From Microbispora catharanthi (GTDB lineage: Bacteria; Actinomycetota; Actinomycetes; Streptosporangiales; Streptosporangiaceae): 64,000 bases of DNA. The DNA lies in contig NZ_VDMA02000006.1 in NCBI RefSeq assembly GCF_006334915.2, positions 310,001 through 374,000 on the forward strand. Reading direction: 5' to 3'. How positions within the stretch are numbered: the first letter of the stretch is position 1; the number at the start of each line of letters is the position of its first letter. Shown here piece by piece: positions 22,703 to 31,268 of the stretch. The notes beneath the pieces were generated by a model. That model did no database searches. It was given only the letters and a program-made list of their open reading frames with translations, and had not been told where the DNA came from. Position numbers and translations under genes: made by a program.

Positions 22703-23248
22703 TCATTGGCCGGTGGCGCCGTCGATCCGCTCGCGGAGCAGGTCGGCGTGCCCGTTGTGGCGCGCGTACTCGGCGATCATGCCGACCAGGACGCGGCGCA
22801 GCGAGACCGGCTGTCCGGTGGCGCGGTGGACACCGGTCTCGTCCAATGAGCGGGCGGCGGAGACGATCTCGCGGGAGCGCGCGCACTCCGCCCGCCACAC
22901 GGCGAACGCCTCCTCGACGTCCCCGTCCAGATCCTCGAAGTCCTGGTCGGGGTCGTCGTCGGAGTAATAAAGGAGCGGGACGTCCTCGCCGGCGAACTGG
23001 ATGCGGAACCACCACCGCTCCACGCCCCCGAGGTGCCGGAGGATCCCGTGGAGGCTGAGCACGGACGGCGGCACCCCCTTGTCCGACAGCCGATCCTTCG
23101 GGATGCCCGAGCACTTCAGCGCGAACGTCTCGCGGTGCCAGTCGAGGAAGGCCGTGAGGATCTCCCGCTCGTCGCCGACGAGGGGAGGGGTGGACCGGGA
23201 ATCGTCGTCCCACTTCTTCGAGTAGTTGGCCTCGGGTATCTCGCTCAT
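22703..23248 (-). CDS. DinB/DUF664-like protein
   Basis: 181 residues forming a four-helix DinB-type bundle. His residues in the usual metal-binding positions are LHGILRHLGGVERWW (His67/His72) and EYARHNGHADLLRERIDG (His164, His167). The last stretch is a hallmark of the actinobacterial DUF664 branch, related to mycothiol-dependent S-transferases. It is probably a cytoplasmic thiol-dependent transferase or detoxification protein; the substrate is unknown. The ATG at 23248 begins just before MSEIPEANYSKK; longer upstream frames have no homology-like sequence. It is divergent from the methyltransferase gene. Confidence 0.75.
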   Translation of the reverse strand: MSEIPEANYSKKWDDDSRSTPPLVGDEREILTAFLDWHRETFALKCSGIPKDRLSDKGVPPSVLSLHGILRHLGGVERWWFRIQFAGEDVPLLYYSDDDPDQDFEDLDGDVEEAFAVWRAECARSREIVSAARSLDETGVHRATGQPVSLRRVLVGMIAEYARHNGHADLLRERIDGATGQ

Positions 23249-23438
23249 GGGCCCGACCCTGCCAGACGTCGCCGACATTTCCGCCCGGGCGCCGGACACG
23301 GAGGCACACTCAGCCGCCGGGAGCCTGCCCCCGGCCGTCCGCCCGAGGATCCGTGCGAGGTGCGTGATCCCCCCTGCGGGGGAGGAGGACCGGCGGCGAC
23401 TTCGGCAAAGTGGCAGGGTGAATGAGGAGCCACGACGG

Positions 23439-24143
23439 ATGTCATCGCATGACCAGCCGTCGCTCAAGGGCCGAGAGGTCCAGCGGACGTTCGACAAAGT
23501 CACCGACTACTACGACCGGATGAATCGCCTCATGACACTGGGACGGCATGCCGCCTGGTGTCGTGACGTCGCGGCGAGCGCGGGAGTCCCTCCAGGTGGA
23601 AGCCTGCTCGACATCGCCACCGGAACCGGCGTCATCGCTCTTGCGGCACTGGAGAGGTATCCGGGCTCGGCCGTCTTCGCCGTCGATTTCTCGGAGCGGA
23701 TGCTGGCGGAAGCGGCGAACAAGCCGGGGGCGTCCGCCGTCACCTGGCAGCATGCGGATGCGAACGATCTGCCCTTCGATGACGAGTCATTTGATGCCGT
23801 CACGCATGGTTACCTCCTCCGCAACGTCGATGATGTCGAGCGCGTGCTCGAAGAGCAGCACCGGGTGCTCAAACCCGGAGGCCGGGTCGTCATTCTGGAG
23901 ACCTGCCCACCACGAGGGCTGCTCCGCTACCCGGTGAGCCTGGGAGTTCGGGTGATGATCCCCCTTCTCGGCCAGATGGTCGCGCGCGATCGTGAGTCGT
24001 ACGCATACCTGCAAAGATCCACGCTGGGATTCATGACCCCGCAGGAGGTCGTCGCGATCCTGCGTCGAGTCGGCTTCGTCTCCATGGCGTGGAAGAAGAG
24101 GTTCTTCGGCACTCACATGATCATCTCGGCGCGGAAGCGGTAG
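23439..24143 (+). CDS. UbiE/MenG-like SAM-dependent methyltransferase
   Basis: 234 residues with the UbiE/COQ5 layout: VQRTFDKVTDYYDRMNRLMTLGRHAAWCR (about 14-42), SAM-binding LLDIATGTGVIALAAL (56-71), acidic VDFSERML, DANDLPFDDESFDAVTHGYLLRNVDD and LKPGGRVVILETCPP. It may act on menaquinone precursors, but it has no men neighbours and many actinomycetes carry extra UbiE-like methyltransferases, so the substrate is uncertain. The start is chosen for GAGGAG ending 9 nt before the ATG; GTG 23418 is an alternative. Third-position GC is lower than in neighbouring genes (many GAT, CGT, CAT codons), a mild sign of separate ancestry. Confidence 0.8.
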   Translation: MSSHDQPSLKGREVQRTFDKVTDYYDRMNRLMTLGRHAAWCRDVAASAGVPPGGSLLDIATGTGVIALAALERYPGSAVFAVDFSERMLAEAANKPGASAVTWQHADANDLPFDDESFDAVTHGYLLRNVDDVERVLEEQHRVLKPGGRVVILETCPPRGLLRYPVSLGVRVMIPLLGQMVARDRESYAYLQRSTLGFMTPQEVVAILRRVGFVSMAWKKRFFGTHMIISARKR

Positions 24144-24289: not shown

Positions 24290-25327
24290 ATGTCGGAGCG
24301 CGTGGCTACTGTGCGGCGCGTGGAGGAACGGTGGGGCGGGGCCGCGACCCGGAACACGGGCGACGCCGAGGCGGGCCGCGGCCGGGCCGGCGCCGAGGGC
24401 GGTGACCGGGCGGCGGCCAGGCGCACCCAGGCCGAGCAGCGGGAGAGCAGGGTCGGCGCGGGCCTGTCGGAGCTGGAGCGGTGGCTGGCCGACCAGATCG
24501 GGCAGGGGATCGCGCAGGCGCGACAGACGGGGCCGGCCGACTGGGACGACCTCGCCAGGCGACTGGTCGACGCGCAGGCGCCGGGTGTGGCGGGGGCGGT
24601 CACCCGGCTCTCGCGGGTGCTCGGCGCCGAGGACTGGCCGGGCCTTCTGCTCGGTGAGTACGCGCTGCTTCATCTGCTCGCGGTCGCCTATCGCCGCGCC
24701 GCGGCGCTGCCCGAGCCGTTGCGGCAGACCGTGCGGGCGCGGGTCGGCTTCTCCGTCACCAGGGAGTCCGTCCTGGCCACCCCGGCGGTGCCCGACCACT
24801 GGGATGTCGTCGGCTGCCGGGACGAGGAGCAGGACCGGCTGGTCGCCCGGCGCGTGTGGCTGGCGGGGCGGACGACGGGCCGCCTGGCGATGGTGCTGTC
24901 GTTCGCGCCTGCCGGGCAGCCGCTCGAGTCGTTTCCGCCGCCGGGCACGACGATCGACGCCGACCTGGCCTTCTACCCGGGGGCGTCGCCGCTGCGCGCC
25001 CTGGTCGCCGAGCGACGGGGCCTCGTCGACGCGGGGCCGCCCCCGGGGACGAAGGTCTCCCAGGTGCCCGCGCTGATCGCGGAGGTGCTCGCGGCCGATC
25101 CCTGGACCGACTCCTGGCCGCTGGTGCTCGACGGAGCCGTCCCCTGCCCGGACGGGCTCGCGGACGACGAGGGGAACGCGCTGCCGCTGCATCCGTCCGC
25201 GGGTGTCCCGTGGCGGCTGCTGGCCGTCTCCGGCGGGCGGCCGGTGACGGTCGCCGCCGAATGGACGCCGCGCGGGCTGCTCCCGCTGACGGCGTGGAAC
25301 GAGGACGGCGGGGTGGTGCGGTTATGA
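24290..25327 (+). CDS. C-terminal SWIM-protein-like gene lacking the SWIM zinc finger
   Basis: 345 residues. The middle (LSELERWLADQIGQGIAQARQTGPADWDDLARRLVDAQAPGVAGAVTRLSRVLG) and the rest match, as I recall, the part after the CxCx(n)CxH SWIM finger in larger actinomycete SWIM-domain proteins encoded in this same gene order. No Cys/His finger is present in the first 60 residues, which are Ala/Arg/Glu-rich. Role unknown; SWIM proteins bind DNA or protein. The stop overlaps the next start (ATGA at 25324), so it is coupled to the DUF5691-like gene. ATG 24290 has no clear RBS; GTG 24302 is possible. It is the first gene of the five-gene MoxR/VWA cluster. Confidence 0.6.
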   Translation: MSERVATVRRVEERWGGAATRNTGDAEAGRGRAGAEGGDRAAARRTQAEQRESRVGAGLSELERWLADQIGQGIAQARQTGPADWDDLARRLVDAQAPGVAGAVTRLSRVLGAEDWPGLLLGEYALLHLLAVAYRRAAALPEPLRQTVRARVGFSVTRESVLATPAVPDHWDVVGCRDEEQDRLVARRVWLAGRTTGRLAMVLSFAPAGQPLESFPPPGTTIDADLAFYPGASPLRALVAERRGLVDAGPPPGTKVSQVPALIAEVLAADPWTDSWPLVLDGAVPCPDGLADDEGNALPLHPSAGVPWRLLAVSGGRPVTVAAEWTPRGLLPLTAWNEDGGVVRL

Positions 25328-26709
25328 CGCGGGCCGCTTCCGGCGGATGGGAGGCCGGGCGGGTTTCGTGGGAGGAACTGGTGTCCACCGCGCTGGTCGG
25401 CGCCGACCGCCGCGCCGTCCCGCCGGAGAGCCTCCTGGAGCGGGCCGCCGAGCAGGTGGTCCGGATGCGCGCGGGGCGGCGGCCGGGCAGGGGCAGGCCG
25501 CCGGCCCCGGCGGCGGCGGAGACGCTGCCACTCGTGCCCGGGGCCGCCGCGGACCGGCTGGCCCGGATGCTCGCGGGTGAGCAGGGGAGGCTGCTGACCG
25601 AGTGGCTGGAGACGGCGGCCGCGCGGCGGGTGCGGGTCCCGGCCGAGATGATCCCCGGGCTGCTCGACCTCGGGGCGCGGGACCGGTCGATCCGCGCCTG
25701 CCTGGGGGCGGTCGCCGGAGCCCGGGGCCGCTGGCTCGCCGGTCTCAACTCCGCCTGGGCCTATCTGCTGGCGGAGCCGGCGCAGGTGCCGCCCGACGAG
25801 GTGTGGGAGCTCGGCACGAGCGGCGACAGGCGTGCCTTCCTGACCGTGTTGCGGCGCCGCGACCCCGCTGCCGCGCGGGAGCTGCTCGAACGCGGCTGGA
25901 GCGCGGAGACGCCGGAGGAGCGTGCCGTCTTCGTGACGATCCTCGCGGACGGCCTCGGCATGGCCGACGAGCCGTTCCTGGAGGCGGTGCTCGACGACCG
26001 GCGCCGCGAGGTGCGGCAGGCCGCCGCCGACCTCCTCACCCGCCTGCCGCGGTCGCGGCTGGCCCTCCGCATGACCGCACGGGCGCGCCGTTTCGTGACC
26101 AGGAACGGCTCCGGGCTCCGGGCGGAGCCGCCGCCGGCCTGCGACGGAGCGATGGAGCGCGACGGTGTCAGGGCGCGGCCACCCGCCGGGATGGAGACGC
26201 GGGGCTGGTGGCTGCAGCAGGTGGTGGCGCACACGCCGCTGTCGTTCTGGCCGGGTCACCTCGGCATGCCGCCGGACGAGATCGCCGGGGCCCGGATCGG
26301 CGACTGGGAGCGGGAGGTCCGCATGGGCTGGACCAGGGCCGCGATCCTGCAGCGGGACGCGACCTGGGCGCGTGCCCTGTTCGAGGCCGAGCCGCTGACC
26401 GACCTGCTGGCGGTGCTCCCGCCGGAGGAGCGGTCCCACCGGGCTGCCGAGCTGGTGGCGGGCCATCCGGTGGACGGCCAGATGGTCATGATGCTGGGCG
26501 GCGTGCCGCGGCCGTGGGGGCACCGGCTGGCGAGAGCCGTGCTCAAGAAGATCGTCGAGACCACGCGGACGCAGCCGTGGAACGCCGGCGAGCTGATCCG
26601 GCTGGCGGGGGAGCGGTTCCACCCCGCGATGCACGAGCACGCCGGGGAGGTCCCCGAACTGGCCGCGACCCTGCGGTTCCGCTTCGACATGCTCAAGGAG
26701 CTTGCATGA
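25324..26709 (+). CDS. DUF5691-like helical-repeat protein of the MoxR/VWA cluster
   Basis: 461 residues. It begins with SWEELVSTALVGADRRAVP, the usual opening of DUF5691 proteins. The central part has HEAT-like helical repeats (RRRDPAAARELLERGWSAETPEERAVFVTILADGLGMADEPFLEAVLDDRRREVRQAAADLL, about 178-238). The C-terminus has MVMMLGGVPRPWGHRLARAVLKKI and ends ELAATLRFRFDMLKEL. There are no catalytic motifs or membrane segments, so a scaffold or substrate-recognition role in the cluster is plausible but unproven. Both ends overlap neighbours by ATGA (25324-25327 and 26706-26709). The family name is from memory of similar loci. Confidence 0.7.
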   Translation: MTRAASGGWEAGRVSWEELVSTALVGADRRAVPPESLLERAAEQVVRMRAGRRPGRGRPPAPAAAETLPLVPGAAADRLARMLAGEQGRLLTEWLETAAARRVRVPAEMIPGLLDLGARDRSIRACLGAVAGARGRWLAGLNSAWAYLLAEPAQVPPDEVWELGTSGDRRAFLTVLRRRDPAAARELLERGWSAETPEERAVFVTILADGLGMADEPFLEAVLDDRRREVRQAAADLLTRLPRSRLALRMTARARRFVTRNGSGLRAEPPPACDGAMERDGVRARPPAGMETRGWWLQQVVAHTPLSFWPGHLGMPPDEIAGARIGDWEREVRMGWTRAAILQRDATWARALFEAEPLTDLLAVLPPEERSHRAAELVAGHPVDGQMVMMLGGVPRPWGHRLARAVLKKIVETTRTQPWNAGELIRLAGERFHPAMHEHAGEVPELAATLRFRFDMLKELA

Positions 26710-27773
26710 CCAGCGTTCTGCGCCCGCACGCGGAGGACCAGTTCGCCGACGAGCTGGTGATCCTCGCGAAGACCGACGACCGGCCACGCCCGCCGGGCTG
26801 GCGGCTGTCGCCCTGGGCGGTGACGACCTACGTGCTGGGGGACGGCGGCCAGATCACGCCGAAGTACATCGGCCCGCGCAGGATCGTCGAGGTCGCGGTG
26901 GCGACGCTCGCCACCGACAGGGCGCTGCTGCTGCTCGGCGTGCCCGGCACGGCCAAGACCTGGCTGTCCGAGCACCTCGCCGCGGCGATCAGCGGTGACT
27001 CGACCCTGCTCGTGCAGGGCACGGCCGGCACGGCGGAGGAGGCCGTCCGCTACGGGTGGAACTACGCGCGGCTCCTGTCGGAGGGCCCTTCCCACGGGGC
27101 GCTGACGCCGAGCCCGATCATGCGCGCGATGGCGGAGGGACGGCTGGCCCGGGTCGAGGAGCTCACCCGCATGCCGTCCGACGTCCAGGACGCCCTGATC
27201 ACCGTGCTGTCGGAGAAGACGCTGCCGATCCCTGAGCTGGGGGAGGAGGTGCAGGCGGCCAAGGGCTTCAACGTCATCGCCACCGCCAACGACCGCGACC
27301 GCGGGGTCAACGACCTGTCGAGCGCGCTGCGCAGGCGGTTCAACACCGTCGTGCTGCCGGTCCCCGCCACCACGGAGGAGGAGGTCGGCATCGTGGCCCG
27401 CCGCGTGGCGCAGCTCGGCCGCTCCCTGGAGCTGCCCGAGACCGTGACCGGGCTGGAGGAGATCCGCCGCGTGGTGACGGTCTTCCGGGAGCTGCGCGCG
27501 GGCGTGACCTCCGACGGGCGGACCAAGGTCAAGTCGCCCAGCGGCACGCTCAGCACGGCGGAGGCCATCTCGGTCGTCACCAACGGGATCGTGCTCGCCG
27601 CCCACTTCGGGGACGGCGTGCTGCGCCCGGCCGACGTCGCGGGCGGCATCCTGGGGGCGGTGGTCCAGGACCCGGTGTCCGATCGCGTGGTCTGGCAGGA
27701 GTACCTGGAGACGGTCGTCCGCGACCGCGACGACTGGCGCGACTTCTACCGGGCCTGCCGCGATGCCGGCTGA
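26706..27773 (+). CDS. MoxR-type AAA+ ATPase
   Basis: 355 residues. Walker A is GVPGTAKT (78-85), Walker B is LARVEELTRMP with Glu151/Glu152 (Glu in place of the usual Asp), sensor 1 is Asn195 (IATANDRDRG) and the arginine-finger region is LSSALRRRF (204-212). The insertion PIPELGEEVQAAKGF is the helix-2/pre-sensor-1 hairpin typical of MoxR/chelatase ATPases. MoxR ATPases act as chaperones or remodellers with VWA partners, and a VWA gene lies two genes downstream. The start overlaps the upstream stop (ATGA) and the end overlaps the DUF5682-like start by 11 bp. Cytoplasmic; substrate unknown. Confidence 0.88.
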   Translation: MTSVLRPHAEDQFADELVILAKTDDRPRPPGWRLSPWAVTTYVLGDGGQITPKYIGPRRIVEVAVATLATDRALLLLGVPGTAKTWLSEHLAAAISGDSTLLVQGTAGTAEEAVRYGWNYARLLSEGPSHGALTPSPIMRAMAEGRLARVEELTRMPSDVQDALITVLSEKTLPIPELGEEVQAAKGFNVIATANDRDRGVNDLSSALRRRFNTVVLPVPATTEEEVGIVARRVAQLGRSLELPETVTGLEEIRRVVTVFRELRAGVTSDGRTKVKSPSGTLSTAEAISVVTNGIVLAAHFGDGVLRPADVAGGILGAVVQDPVSDRVVWQEYLETVVRDRDDWRDFYRACRDAG

Positions 27774-30135
27774 GATCGCCGCCGGCGCCTCGTCCGGGCC
27801 GGGGGCGCCGGTGCCGGAGGTGCCGGTGCCGGGTTCGTCTGTGCCGCCGGGTTCGTCTGTGCCGCGTTTGTCGGTGCTGGGGGTGCGGCACCACGGGCCG
27901 GGATCGGCCAGGGCCGTGCGTGACGAGCTGAACAGGATCAGGCCCGATCTGGTGCTCGTCGAGGGCCCGCCCGAAGCCGACGGCCTGGTGGCGCTCGCCG
28001 CCGATCCCGGCATGCGCCCGCCCGTCGCGCTGCTGGCGTACGTGCCGGGGGAGCCGTCGCGGGCCGCCTTCTGGCCGTTCGCGGAGTTCTCGCCGGAGTG
28101 GCAGGCGATCGCCTACGCCGCCCGGGCGGGCGTCGAGGCGCGCTTTTGCGACCTGCCCGCCGCGCACGGTCTCGCGCTCGACGCCGACCCCGTACGCCGC
28201 GATCCCATCGGCGAACTCGCCCGCGCGGCGGGCTACGACGACCCGGAGCGGTGGTGGGAGGACCTGGTCGAGCACCGGGGCGAGGCCGGGACTCTCGACG
28301 TGGTCGCCGAGGCGATGAGGGCCGTGCGCGAGGGGCACGTCGCGGAAGGTGTCGAGGCCCGGCGCGAGGCGTACATGCGCAGGACGCTGCGGAAGGCGGC
28401 GCGAGAGGGCTTCGCCCGGATCGCGGTGGTCTGCGGGGCCTGGCACCTGCCCGCGCTGTCCCCGCCCGCCCTGTCCCTGCCCACGCTGTCCCTGCCCGCG
28501 CTGTCCCCGCCCGGAGGCCGCGCCCGCGGGAGCGGCCTGCCCGCCGGGTCCGGCCCGGACGCGCCGGACGGGCCCCGCCGGCTGCCCTCCCCGGCCGAGG
28601 ACGATCGGCTGCTGCGCGGTCTGCCCAAGGTCAGGATCGAGATGACGTGGGTGCCGTGGACCCACGGACGGCTCGCCGCGGGGGCGGGCTACGGCGCGGG
28701 CGTCGCCGCGCCCGGGTGGTACGAGCACCTGTTCACGGCGCCCGACCGCCCGGTGGAGCGCTGGCTCGCCCGAGCCGCCGCGATCCTGCGGGAGGAGGAC
28801 CTGCCCGTCTCCTCCGCGCACGTCATCGAGGCCGTACGGCTGGCCGAGGGGCTGGCGGCGCTGCGCGGTAGGCCGCTCGCCGGGCTGTCGGAGGTCACCG
28901 AGGCGGTCAGGGCGGTGCTGTGCGGCGGCGACGAGCTGCCGGTCGAGCTGGTGCAGCGGCGGATGGTCGTGGGGGAGCGGCTCGGGCGGGTGCCGGACGC
29001 CACGCCGATGGTGCCGCTGCGGCGGGACCTGCGCGACGAGCAGCGGCGGTTGCGCATGAAGCCCGAGGCGATGTCCGGGGAGCACGACCTCGACCTGCGC
29101 AGGCCGCTCGACCTCGGCCGAAGCCGGCTGTTGCACCGGCTCGCCCTGCTGGACGTGCCCTGGGGGACGCCACGGCGGGCCCGGAGCAAGGGGACGTTCA
29201 AGGAGTCCTGGTCGCTGGAGTGGCGTCCGGAGCTCGACGTGGCCCTGGTCGAGGCCGCCGTGTGGGGGATCACGGTCGAGGCGGCGGCGACCGCCCGCGT
29301 CCGCAACCTCGCGGGCGGCGCGGGCCTGCCCGAGTTGTCCGCGCTGGTCGAGCGCTGCCTGCTCGCCCACCTGCCGGACGCGCTGCCGTACGTCCTGGGG
29401 CGGATCGAGGACCGGGCGGCGCTCGACGGCGAGGTGCGCCATCTCATGGGGGCGCTGCCCGCGCTCGTGCGGGCCCGCCGGTACGGGGACGTGCGCGGCA
29501 CCGAGGGGCTCGCGGGCGTCACCGAGTCGATGCTCGCGCGGATCTGCGCAGGGCTGTCCCCCGCCCTCACAGGACTGGACGAGGACGCGGCCCGCCAGAT
29601 GGCGGCGCTGATGGACGGCGTCCACACCGCGGCCGGGTTGATGGGGAGCGGCCGGTGGCTCGCGACGCTGACCGGGATCTCCGGGCGCGACGACCTGCCG
29701 GGGCTGCTCGACGGCCGGATCGTGCGGATCCTGTTCGACGCCGAGGCGCTGGGGGACGACGTGGCCGCCCGCATGGCGCGGTCGATGTCGCCCGGCAACC
29801 CCCCGGCCCGGTCGGCGGCCTGGATGGAGGGATTCCTGTCCGGGGGCGGCCTGCTGCTCGTCCACGACCCGCGCCTGCTCGCCACCGTGGACGCCTGGCT
29901 CACCGGCCTGTCACCCGAGGCGTTCGTCGACGTGCTGCCGTTGCTGCGGCGCACGTTCGGCGCGTTCCCGGCGCCGGAGCGGCGGATGATCGGCGGGCGG
30001 GTCCGCTCCGGCGCCGCACCGCGTCCCGGTTCGCCGGGCGGTGACGAGGGGGCGGACTACGACGACGGGCTGGCGGCGGGAGCCGTGCGGACCGTGCGCG
30101 ACATCCTGGGACGCGGGACGGGCGGGAGGCCATGA
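27763..30135 (+). CDS. DUF5682-like protein with paired GxxH motifs
   Basis: 790 residues. The N-terminal domain opens LSVLGVRHHGPGSARAVRDELNRIRPDLVLVEGPPEADGL: a GxxH at 40-43, then Glu67. A second GxxH (GAWH, 225-228) lies in IAVVCGAWHLPAL. This pair plus the acidic residue is the signature of the TIKI/TraB/ChaN-like superfamily of putative metallohydrolases. The proline-rich insert 232-246 comes from a 15-bp tandem repeat. The remaining 500 residues are mostly helical with no known motif. It overlaps the ATPase gene by 11 bp and the VWA start by ATGA (30132-30135). The enzymatic function is my inference; no experimental role is known to me. Confidence 0.7.
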   Translation: MPAEIAAGASSGPGAPVPEVPVPGSSVPPGSSVPRLSVLGVRHHGPGSARAVRDELNRIRPDLVLVEGPPEADGLVALAADPGMRPPVALLAYVPGEPSRAAFWPFAEFSPEWQAIAYAARAGVEARFCDLPAAHGLALDADPVRRDPIGELARAAGYDDPERWWEDLVEHRGEAGTLDVVAEAMRAVREGHVAEGVEARREAYMRRTLRKAAREGFARIAVVCGAWHLPALSPPALSLPTLSLPALSPPGGRARGSGLPAGSGPDAPDGPRRLPSPAEDDRLLRGLPKVRIEMTWVPWTHGRLAAGAGYGAGVAAPGWYEHLFTAPDRPVERWLARAAAILREEDLPVSSAHVIEAVRLAEGLAALRGRPLAGLSEVTEAVRAVLCGGDELPVELVQRRMVVGERLGRVPDATPMVPLRRDLRDEQRRLRMKPEAMSGEHDLDLRRPLDLGRSRLLHRLALLDVPWGTPRRARSKGTFKESWSLEWRPELDVALVEAAVWGITVEAAATARVRNLAGGAGLPELSALVERCLLAHLPDALPYVLGRIEDRAALDGEVRHLMGALPALVRARRYGDVRGTEGLAGVTESMLARICAGLSPALTGLDEDAARQMAALMDGVHTAAGLMGSGRWLATLTGISGRDDLPGLLDGRIVRILFDAEALGDDVAARMARSMSPGNPPARSAAWMEGFLSGGGLLLVHDPRLLATVDAWLTGLSPEAFVDVLPLLRRTFGAFPAPERRMIGGRVRSGAAPRPGSPGGDEGADYDDGLAAGAVRTVRDILGRGTGGRP
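28456..28515 (+). repeat. 15-bp tandem repeat coding an LSxPx array
   Basis: Four imperfect 15-bp units, each beginning CTGTCC, encode LSPPA-LSLPT-LSLPA-LSPPG directly after the second GxxH of the DUF5682-like protein. Length is likely to vary between strains by slippage. Confidence 0.85.
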
Positions 30136-31268
30136 TGGGCGGCGAGGACGAGCGGCTGCGCCGATGGCGGCTGGTGCTGGGCGGCGCGGCGGAGGGAACG
30201 CTGGAGGGAGCGGACGCCCGGATGGACGCCGCCCTCACGGCCCTCTACGACGGGCAGGAACGGCGCGGCGCCGGTCTCGGCGCGTCCGCGCCGCGGGTGG
30301 CCCGATGGCTGGGGGACATCAGGGAGTACTTCCCCGCAGGCGTCGTGCAGGTCATGCAGAAGGACGCCATCGAGCGGCTCGACCTGACCCGGCTGCTGCT
30401 GGAGCCCGAGATGCTGGAGGCCGTCGAGCCCGACGTGCACCTGGTGGGCACGCTGCTGTCGCTGAGCCGGCTGATGCCGGAGCGGGCCCGCGAGTCGGCC
30501 AGGGCCGTCGTCCGCACGGTCGTGCGGGAGCTGGAGGCGCGGCTCACGCGGCGCACTCTTACGGCCGTCGGCGGCGCGCTCGACCGCTCGGCCAGGACCC
30601 ACCGGCCCAGGAGGGCGGCCGAGGTCGACTGGAACCGTACGATCCGGGCGAACCTGCGCAACTACCTCCCCGAGCGGAAGACCGTCGTGCCGTCCCGGCT
30701 GGTCGGGTACGCCCGCGGGCAGCGGGCCGTCCAGCGGGAGGTCGTGCTGGCCGTCGACCAGAGCGGCTCGATGGCCGCCTCGGTGGTGTACGCGGGCGTC
30801 TTCGCCGCGGTGCTCGCCTCGATGCGTTCGCTCAAGACCTCGTTCGTGGCCTTCGACACGGCCGTGGCCGACCTGACCGACCGGCTGCGCGACCCCGTCG
30901 AGGTGCTGTTCGGCACCCAGCTCGGCGGCGGCACCGACATCAACCGGGCGGTGGCCTACTGCCAGAACCTCGTCACCCGGCCGGCCGACACGATCTTCCT
31001 GCTGGTCAGCGACCTGTACGAGGGCGGGCCGCGGGAGGAGATGCTGCGCAGGATCGCCGCCATGACCGCCGCCGGGGTCCAGGTGATCGTGCTGCTCGCA
31101 CTGTCGGACGAGGGGGCGCCGCAGTACGACCACGACAACGCCGCGGCGCTGGCCGCGATGGGCGTGCCGGCCTTCGCCTGCACACCGGACGCCTTTCCCG
31201 GCCTCATGGCGGCCGCCATCGAGCGCCGGTCCTACGACCAAGGTCGCATTTTCGCGTCAGGACGGTGA
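30132..31268 (+). CDS. VWA domain protein, partner of MoxR ATPase
   Basis: 378 residues. A helical N-terminal half (about 1-195, including DIREYFPAGVVQVMQKDAIERLDL) precedes a von Willebrand A domain with a complete MIDAS: Asp209-x-Ser211-x-Ser213 (VDQSGSM), Thr268 (GGGTDIN) and Asp294 (LVSDLYEGG). No signal peptide or membrane segment is seen, so it is cytoplasmic, as expected for a MoxR partner. It is the last gene of the coupled cluster; its ATG overlaps the upstream stop. It probably presents a metal-bound ligand or substrate to the MoxR-type ATPase. Confidence 0.88.
   Translation: MMGGEDERLRRWRLVLGGAAEGTLEGADARMDAALTALYDGQERRGAGLGASAPRVARWLGDIREYFPAGVVQVMQKDAIERLDLTRLLLEPEMLEAVEPDVHLVGTLLSLSRLMPERARESARAVVRTVVRELEARLTRRTLTAVGGALDRSARTHRPRRAAEVDWNRTIRANLRNYLPERKTVVPSRLVGYARGQRAVQREVVLAVDQSGSMAASVVYAGVFAAVLASMRSLKTSFVAFDTAVADLTDRLRDPVEVLFGTQLGGGTDINRAVAYCQNLVTRPADTIFLLVSDLYEGGPREEMLRRIAAMTAAGVQVIVLLALSDEGAPQYDHDNAAALAAMGVPAFACTPDAFPGLMAAAIERRSYDQGRIFASGR

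Follow-up and report, generated by a model that had tools for sequence, protein, structure and literature searches.

A conserved five-gene MoxR-VWA cluster of the YehL type in Microbispora catharanthi, with a SWIM-family protein that lacks the SWIM finger

In MoxR-VWA pairs, as described in two reports (PMC7159879; PMC13036017), a peptide is caught by the VWA protein and a conformational change is driven by the ATPase. We analyzed a cluster of this kind, consisting of five genes on the + strand (24290-31268) of a 64,000-nucleotide stretch of Microbispora catharanthi (NZ_VDMA02000006.1; the genome is 9.25 Mb, and the whole stretch is referred to as the window). Like RavA-ViaA, the cluster holds a MoxR and a VWA gene in one operon, but its MoxR protein has no significant similarity to RavA (blastp E 0.49, in a comparison that covered, for Escherichia coli, the YehL and RavA proteins). 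Like NorQ-NorD and CoxD-CoxE, it combines a MoxR ATPase and a VWA protein, in this case a CoxE-type one; it differs in its other partners, in having no evident target enzyme adjacent to it, and in a MoxR profile that is weakly NorQ-like. With the MoxR-vWA ternary systems it shares MoxR and vWA genes and at least one more protein, but all four third components are missing from it, a variable effector was not seen, and it is near-universal in the sampled families. The direct counterpart is yehLMPQ of E. coli, in which MoxR, DUF5682, and VWA genes stand in identical order and a SWIM protein is part of the run; there, however, the SWIM gene is last, genes for WGR/DUF4132 proteins lie upstream, and DUF5691 was not found in the E. 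coli control genomes. A first-pass annotation of this DNA, which likened the locus to remodelling or chelatase-like machines and to conflict systems, was right about the MoxR-VWA pairing and overlooked this counterpart.

We class the set as the YehL type of MoxR-VWA machine, because its MoxR, DUF5682, and VWA proteins match YehL, YehM, and YehP end to end: the MoxR protein is 42% identical to YehL over 356 columns (4e-81, blastp), and the DUF5682 and VWA proteins are 27% and 37% identical to YehM and YehP, respectively, over nearly the full length. DUF5682, VWA, and SWIM-family genes adjoin the MoxR gene, which is the neighbourhood of the YehL subfamily, although the SWIM finger itself has been lost here. 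Four of the five products exceed the Pfam cut-offs (DUF5691 1.9e-133, AAA_5 3.1e-38, DUF5682 5e-261, and VWA_CoxE 2.4e-55); gene 1 matches no Pfam family at E <= 0.1. The motifs of the proposed motor are intact, in support of the MoxR+VWA pair that had been claimed: all 20 aligned MoxR proteins share the Walker A residues, the Glu-Glu pair of the Walker B region, and the arginines R210 and R211, and all 16 VWA proteins share the DxSxS motif and the later Asp of the metal ion-dependent adhesion site (MIDAS), the MIDAS Thr not being invariant. The cluster very probably encodes a MoxR-VWA remodelling machine.

Among relatives of the YehL type, an Iodobacter plasmid carries the same layout as E. 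coli, and Sinorhizobium has a DUF4132 gene between the DUF5682 and VWA genes. A second layout, with WGR/DUF4132 beside MoxR, DUF5682, VWA, and SWIM genes, was seen on the E. coli chromosome and on plasmids (L088, L093, L094, and L096). In the open-licence papers searched we found none on the function of the YehL branch or of yehLMPQ, no mention of DUF5682 or DUF5691, and none that matched on SWIM, MoxR, and VWA together. MoxR proteins are believed to act as chaperones that help protein complexes mature (PMC3893208); on that reading the machine might be a RavA-ViaA-like chaperone for general stress or respiration, in which DUF5682 is a scaffold without activity. We consider this improbable, given the lack of a significant blastp match to RavA and an invariant His/Glu set in DUF5682 (described below) that would be unexpected in a bare scaffold.

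Conservation of gene order was evaluated in the best 80 of 571 confirmed relatives found with a DUF5682 query, a narrow sample in that all are actinomycetes; the closest named relatives are Microbispora species (DUF5682 is 91% identical in M. bryophytorum). In 70 of these 80 loci the five genes are all present, on the same strand and in a single order (two of these loci, L025 and L047, have the outermost gene truncated at a contig end), which bears out the claim of a five-gene system; orthologues that failed to co-occur had been named as a refutation, and they do co-occur. Contig ends account for the outer genes missing from 7 further loci, and in the remaining 3 (L055, L080, and L081) the first two genes are transcribed divergently from the other three. 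Farther afield, the order is retained in Rhizobium, in Deinococcus (with a small extra gene ahead of DUF5682), in Hymenobacter (where a fusion joins genes 1 and 2 and there is a small extra gene), and in Methylosinus, where the VWA gene is unannotated and matches in several frames; on the Methylosinus plasmid pOB3b3 (L091, 12217-13325) this gene looks broken. In Fusobacterium a 637-residue protein without a Pfam family at E <= 0.01 occupies the position of DUF5691. Outside the start of gene 1, selection is purifying (the ratio of nonsynonymous to synonymous substitution rates, dN/dS, is 0.07-0.37 for genes 2-5), and a decaying cluster was rejected on this basis.

The five reading frames of the window stand on the + strand where the first-pass annotation had placed them, and its overlaps of 4 or 11 bp were confirmed (4, 4, 11, and 4 bases in succession). 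In the relatives, a 4-base overlap with an available start codon occurs in 54/71, 67/75, 46/80, and 54/79 gene pairs, in gene order, as counted by a script that favours 4-base spacing wherever possible. As a control we used the stop of gene 5, which has no coupled partner: with every frame counted, it would permit a 4-base overlap at 29 of 78 loci, or about one in eight if frames are assumed random. The overlaps exceed chance, because the inner gene ends permit them far more often (69/71, 74/75, 53/80, and 69/80). The further claim that the five proteins must be made together goes beyond what overlaps alone demonstrate. A search for promoter or terminator patterns gave none.

Gene pairs are fused in some relatives. 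A single reading frame encodes both SWIM and DUF5691 in two cases, Phytohabitans (L076) and Hymenobacter (L090; here the finger was identified by pattern and the homology by tblastn, and Pfam gave no match), and DUF5682 and VWA form one protein of 1257 residues on a plasmid of Streptomyces sp. NBC_00984 (L095, 9941-13714). The fused pairs agree with the divergent split described above, which suggests that the cluster consists of two modules, genes 1+2 and genes 3+4+5. We think it quite likely that all five products act in one complex.

The large DUF5682 protein (gene 4) carries a candidate catalytic signature. Two GX2H motifs and a conserved Glu define the TIKI/TraB proteins. In 53 of 53 DUF5682 N-termini H43, E67, G225, and H228 are invariant, and G40 is present in at least 90%; the Glu lies 24 residues past the first His (26 in E. 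coli YbaP). The GX2H...GX2H layout was present in 6 of 7 TraB-family proteins examined, L117 lacking it by pattern. TraB is also the Pfam family, other than DUF5682 itself, that matches the most N-termini (7/53, best E 0.013, below the cut-off); ChaN, another family of the TIKI superfamily, matches 1/53. For 46 C-terminal pieces of DUF5682, by contrast, the 25 families examined of the 26 matched include no TIKI family, TraB among them. A profile-profile comparison (hhalign) against TraB gave a score of 30.7 around the second motif, which none of 200 column-shuffled profiles (best 21.9) reached; the reversed profile (16.3) and five unrelated profiles (best 17.6) fell short of it as well. The yardstick profile was built from relatives of E. 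coli YbaP, because TraB occurs in 1/198 and ChaN in 2/198 genomes of the phylum, too few for a profile. The first-pass description of a large protein with hydrolase-like motifs is thus supported by the invariant His/Glu set, the TraB matches, and the shuffle-tested score.

Several results weigh against a TIKI-like fold, and as a lead it is below formal significance. No TIKI family reached the Pfam cut-off in DUF5682, and for the N-termini the single E-values of RepB_primase_C (0.00036), CBM46 (0.0049), and Glyco_trans_4_4 (0.0094) are better than that of TraB; the hhalign match covers 33 columns, with a probability of 12.9 and P of 0.0022. The structure model of the whole protein (predicted local distance difference test [pLDDT] 79.5) has no Foldseek match at E <= 0.001, and no TIKI-fold title appears among the best 50 of 732 matches, which are mainly helical-repeat and other helical proteins, the helical part dominating. 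By sequence, no match of DUF5682 to the PDB was found up to E 10. DUF5682 differs from the TIKI/TraB/PrgY superfamily in its long, mostly helical C-terminal part. On balance the N-terminal sequence signature makes a TIKI-like fold probable, whereas for DUF5682 as an active hydrolase, which we call putative, the arguments are evenly balanced. In PMC12329661, TIKI proteins are termed metalloproteases in some passages and putative ones in others.

The same His/Glu set may be read as a metal site that is served by the motor. MoxR and VWA would then form a metal-insertion or activation machine, which completes the metal centre either of DUF5682 or of an enzyme encoded elsewhere, much as NorQ-NorD does for nitric oxide reductase, with the products of genes 1 and 2 as adaptors. 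NorQD remodels to insert metal (PMC13036017), the MoxR profile matches NorQ in the PDB (7e-6), the VWA is of the CoxE type, and DUF5682 can be fused to VWA; a TIKI-like enzyme would require metal too, which keeps this alternative near. However, the best PDB match of the MoxR profile is midasin (2e-29) rather than NorQ, no target enzyme is evident other than DUF5682, none of the seven window neighbours tested follows the cluster in most relatives, and a SWIM/OB-like arm would be unexpected. We regard metal insertion as possible, but distinctly less probable than not.

Gene 1 had been annotated as SWIM-associated, which is correct for its family and incorrect for the protein encoded here. The CxC..CxH finger is in frame in gene 1 of 66 of the 74 relatives, mostly as CSCPSRKFPCKH; it lies in another frame in L046, is cut in L047, and is absent in L004, L005, L006, L014, L045, and L062. 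In L045 (Actinoallomurus) and L062 (one Actinomadura) it was probably lost separately. Pfam finds the finger in 33 of 34 alignment members, the one without it being gene 1 of the window, an absence that the first-pass annotation overlooked. With the finger region of M. corallina as query, a single genome among the 15 of the genus gave the full stretch and one more gave a weak pre-finger fragment; the remainder of gene 1 is present in 15 of 15. The start of gene 1 resembles that of its relatives and then joins the linker directly, as expected of an in-frame deletion of the finger. dN/dS is 0.22-0.32 in the core of the gene (five comparisons), 0.31-0.64 over the whole gene, and 1.0-2.5 over the first 50 residues (a rough value from 46-50 codons). 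A move of the finger to another frame or an upstream gene was rejected: no PSRK-type finger occurs in the six frames of the window, L004, L005, L006, or L014, and the single CxC..CxH pattern in the six frames of the window is a chance one with stops inside.

The remainder of gene 1 was evaluated with the model of a SWIM-bearing relative (L007, pLDDT 89.7). Among the best 50 of 774 PDB matches, 24 are HIN (16), RPA/SSB (6), or LEF-3 (2) proteins (best E 0.06), many of these rows being repeats of the same proteins; some of the labels are our own assignments, for rows whose titles do not state a domain. In the viral Foldseek list LEF-3 stands first (E 0.0059), 6 of the best 50 of 610 rows being LEF-3 and 1 a single-stranded DNA-binding protein, and a viral SWIM protein is second. 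We take HIN, RPA/SSB, and LEF-3 to be OB-fold binders of nucleic acid beyond what their titles say, and the modelled C-terminal part of gene 1 is a probable tandem OB-fold. This lead, too, is below formal significance, and three observations weigh against it or against a role for the finger: the model has no Foldseek match at E <= 0.001 in either the PDB or the viral set, gene 1 matches the YehQ profile weakly and within the SWIM finger only, and no finger was detected in 14 of the genus's 15 genomes, so that the remainder does not depend on it. For a putative nucleic-acid arm we see about equal grounds for and against. Gene 1 was rejected as a full counterpart of YehQ, the profile comparison matching the finger only.

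DUF5691 (gene 2), which had been described as a helical scaffold, is HEAT-like as judged from sequence profiles: below the Pfam threshold, its members match HEAT families most often (13 of 33 match HEAT_2), and its best PDB matches are FliG (E 0.0023) and designed alpha-repeats. DUF5691 was also rejected as the YehQ counterpart, profile comparison giving nothing firm (blastp E 0.003).

The distribution of the set fits an inherited cell function more than mobile defence, to judge from the genomes searched. DUF5691 is present in 15/15 genomes of the genus, in 71/296 of the class, and in 98/101 of a family (G076) that we take to be Streptomycetaceae because, in 11 of 13 genomes of the G076 genus, the MoxR protein is 89-93% identical to that of Streptomyces violascens. 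DUF5682 occurs, in any layout, in 109/121 genomes of the window's family, and yehLMPQ is covered to at least 80% in 5162/5426 E. coli genomes (about 95% of complete genomes). Several of the 13 G076-genus genomes have extra MoxR copies at 46-51% identity, so that genomes of that genus commonly carry two or more YehL-like sets; M. catharanthi itself has a second VWA-MoxR-DUF5682 set on contig 44 (205000-224500, L087; 509, 371, and about 942 residues), the flanking proteins of which match no Pfam family at E <= 0.01. A pattern-based scan found no MoxR relative in viral contigs, and among 50,697 phage records there is one, the unverified fecal scaffold MT835988.1 (L126, 52% identical), which may be a bacterial fragment.

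This spread bears on whether the cluster serves in biological conflict or phage defence as a MoxR-vWA ternary system, as the first-pass annotation had hinted by pointing to NTPase/VWA ternary systems. MoxR and VWA with a large third protein resemble the ternary layout, and conservation is strong in families that we take to be filamentous actinomycetes, ternary systems favouring multicellular bacteria (PMC7159879, for both layout and preference). Relatives of DUF5682 occur in 36 of 72,556 plasmid records (some of them chromosome-sized), and 2 of 46 DUF5682 C-terminal pieces match fvmX2, a domain of FtsH ternary systems (best E 0.11). The bpMoxR profile, which represents a MoxR family of ternary conflict systems, scores just below its cut-off here (25.6 versus 27 bits) and just above it in Fusobacterium (30.1). 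On the other side, PADLOC matches are weak and to the motor protein (best E 0.0049), none of VMAP, iSTAND, FtsH, or beta-propeller occurs in the five proteins (Pfam E <= 0.1), and PMC7159879 does not contain the words SWIM, Yeh, or DUF56. The set is near-universal rather than patchy, the scans of viral contigs and phages offer nothing beyond the single record above, and its conservation is like that of its surroundings: compared with one close relative (L004), the five genes are 87-97% identical and five neighbouring genes 89-98%, gene 1 being slightly less conserved. The link to conflict systems was thus not borne out, and we rate it marginally below even the chaperone.

We return to an ordinary cell function carried out by a remodelling complex, the whole of which we propose tentatively, at somewhat less than even confidence: driven by ATP, it would unite a metallo-hydrolase of the TIKI-like kind with an arm that binds nucleic acid. 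By analogy with described pairs, a MoxR hexamer would pull the VWA protein, which would hold a peptide of a target or of DUF5682. The catalytic work would fall to DUF5682, as a TIKI/TraB-like metallo-hydrolase, and probably a protease, that sits on a helical arm; DUF5691 would be a HEAT-type scaffold carrying the gene 1 protein, the OB-like part of which (with the SWIM finger where it is kept) would bring the complex to nucleic acid or nucleoprotein. The complex would then remodel or cleave proteins on nucleic acid. WGR is a DNA-binding module in PARP enzymes, and its presence in E. coli-type sets therefore likewise points to nucleic-acid targeting. In its fullest and most speculative form, which we think unlikely to hold in every part, the proposal is of an undescribed, widely conserved AAA+ system: powered by a MoxR-VWA motor and targeted by SWIM/OB-fold arms, a TIKI-type metalloprotease would act on DNA- or RNA-bound proteins, and YehLMPQ (WGR/DUF4132 in place of DUF5691) would form a second branch.

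The coordinates of the features are given in Table 1. Of the seven window neighbours tested, none accompanies the cluster in most of the 80 loci: the downstream MFS and enolase-like genes recur in 28/80 and 30/80, and the upstream UbiE-type gene was found in none of the relatives' flanks that were covered. A mycothiol-S-transferase (MST/DinB) gene lies upstream (22703-23503, - strand) and is present in 4/80 loci.

Table 1. Features of the five-gene cluster, in window positions
Feature	Position	Strand	Description
Gene 1	24290..25327	+	345 residues; SWIM-family protein without SWIM finger; helical middle, probable tandem OB-fold C-terminal part
Gene 1, residues 1-50	24290..24439	+	Apparent scar of in-frame SWIM finger loss; dN/dS about 1 or more
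Gene 1, beta-rich OB-like region	24788..25324 (approximate)	+	Matched to L007 model; offset of 97 residues estimated from lengths
Gene 2	25324..26709	+	461 residues; DUF5691, HEAT-like helical repeats
Gene 3	26706..27773	+	355 residues; MoxR AAA+ ATPase, YehL type
Gene 3, Walker A (residues 78-85)	26937..26960	+	
Gene 3, Walker B region (residues 148-155)	27147..27170	+	Invariant Glu-Glu pair E151-E152
Gene 4	27763..30135	+	790 residues; DUF5682; probable TIKI/TraB-like N-terminal domain, all-helical C-terminal part
Gene 4, first GX2H-type motif (G40-H43)	27880..27891	+	
Gene 4, invariant E67	27961..27963	+	
Gene 4, second GX2H motif (G225-H228)	28435..28446	+	
Gene 4, mostly helical part (about residues 317-781)	28711..30105	+	From structure model
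Gene 5	30132..31268	+	378 residues; CoxE-type VWA protein, YehP counterpart
Gene 5, MIDAS DxSxS (residues 209-213)	30756..30770	+	

The cluster is real, conserved, and ordinary in its spread, and the domain assignments and the natural loss of the SWIM finger are new. Genes of the YehL branch are present in about 95% of complete E. coli genomes, and DUF5691 in 98 of 101 genomes taken as Streptomycetaceae, yet we found no paper that gives the branch a job. The domain leads provide direct tests of what that job may be: metal binding and hydrolysis by DUF5682 at the named residues, binding of nucleic acid by the gene 1 protein, and assembly of the complex along the two fused pairs.

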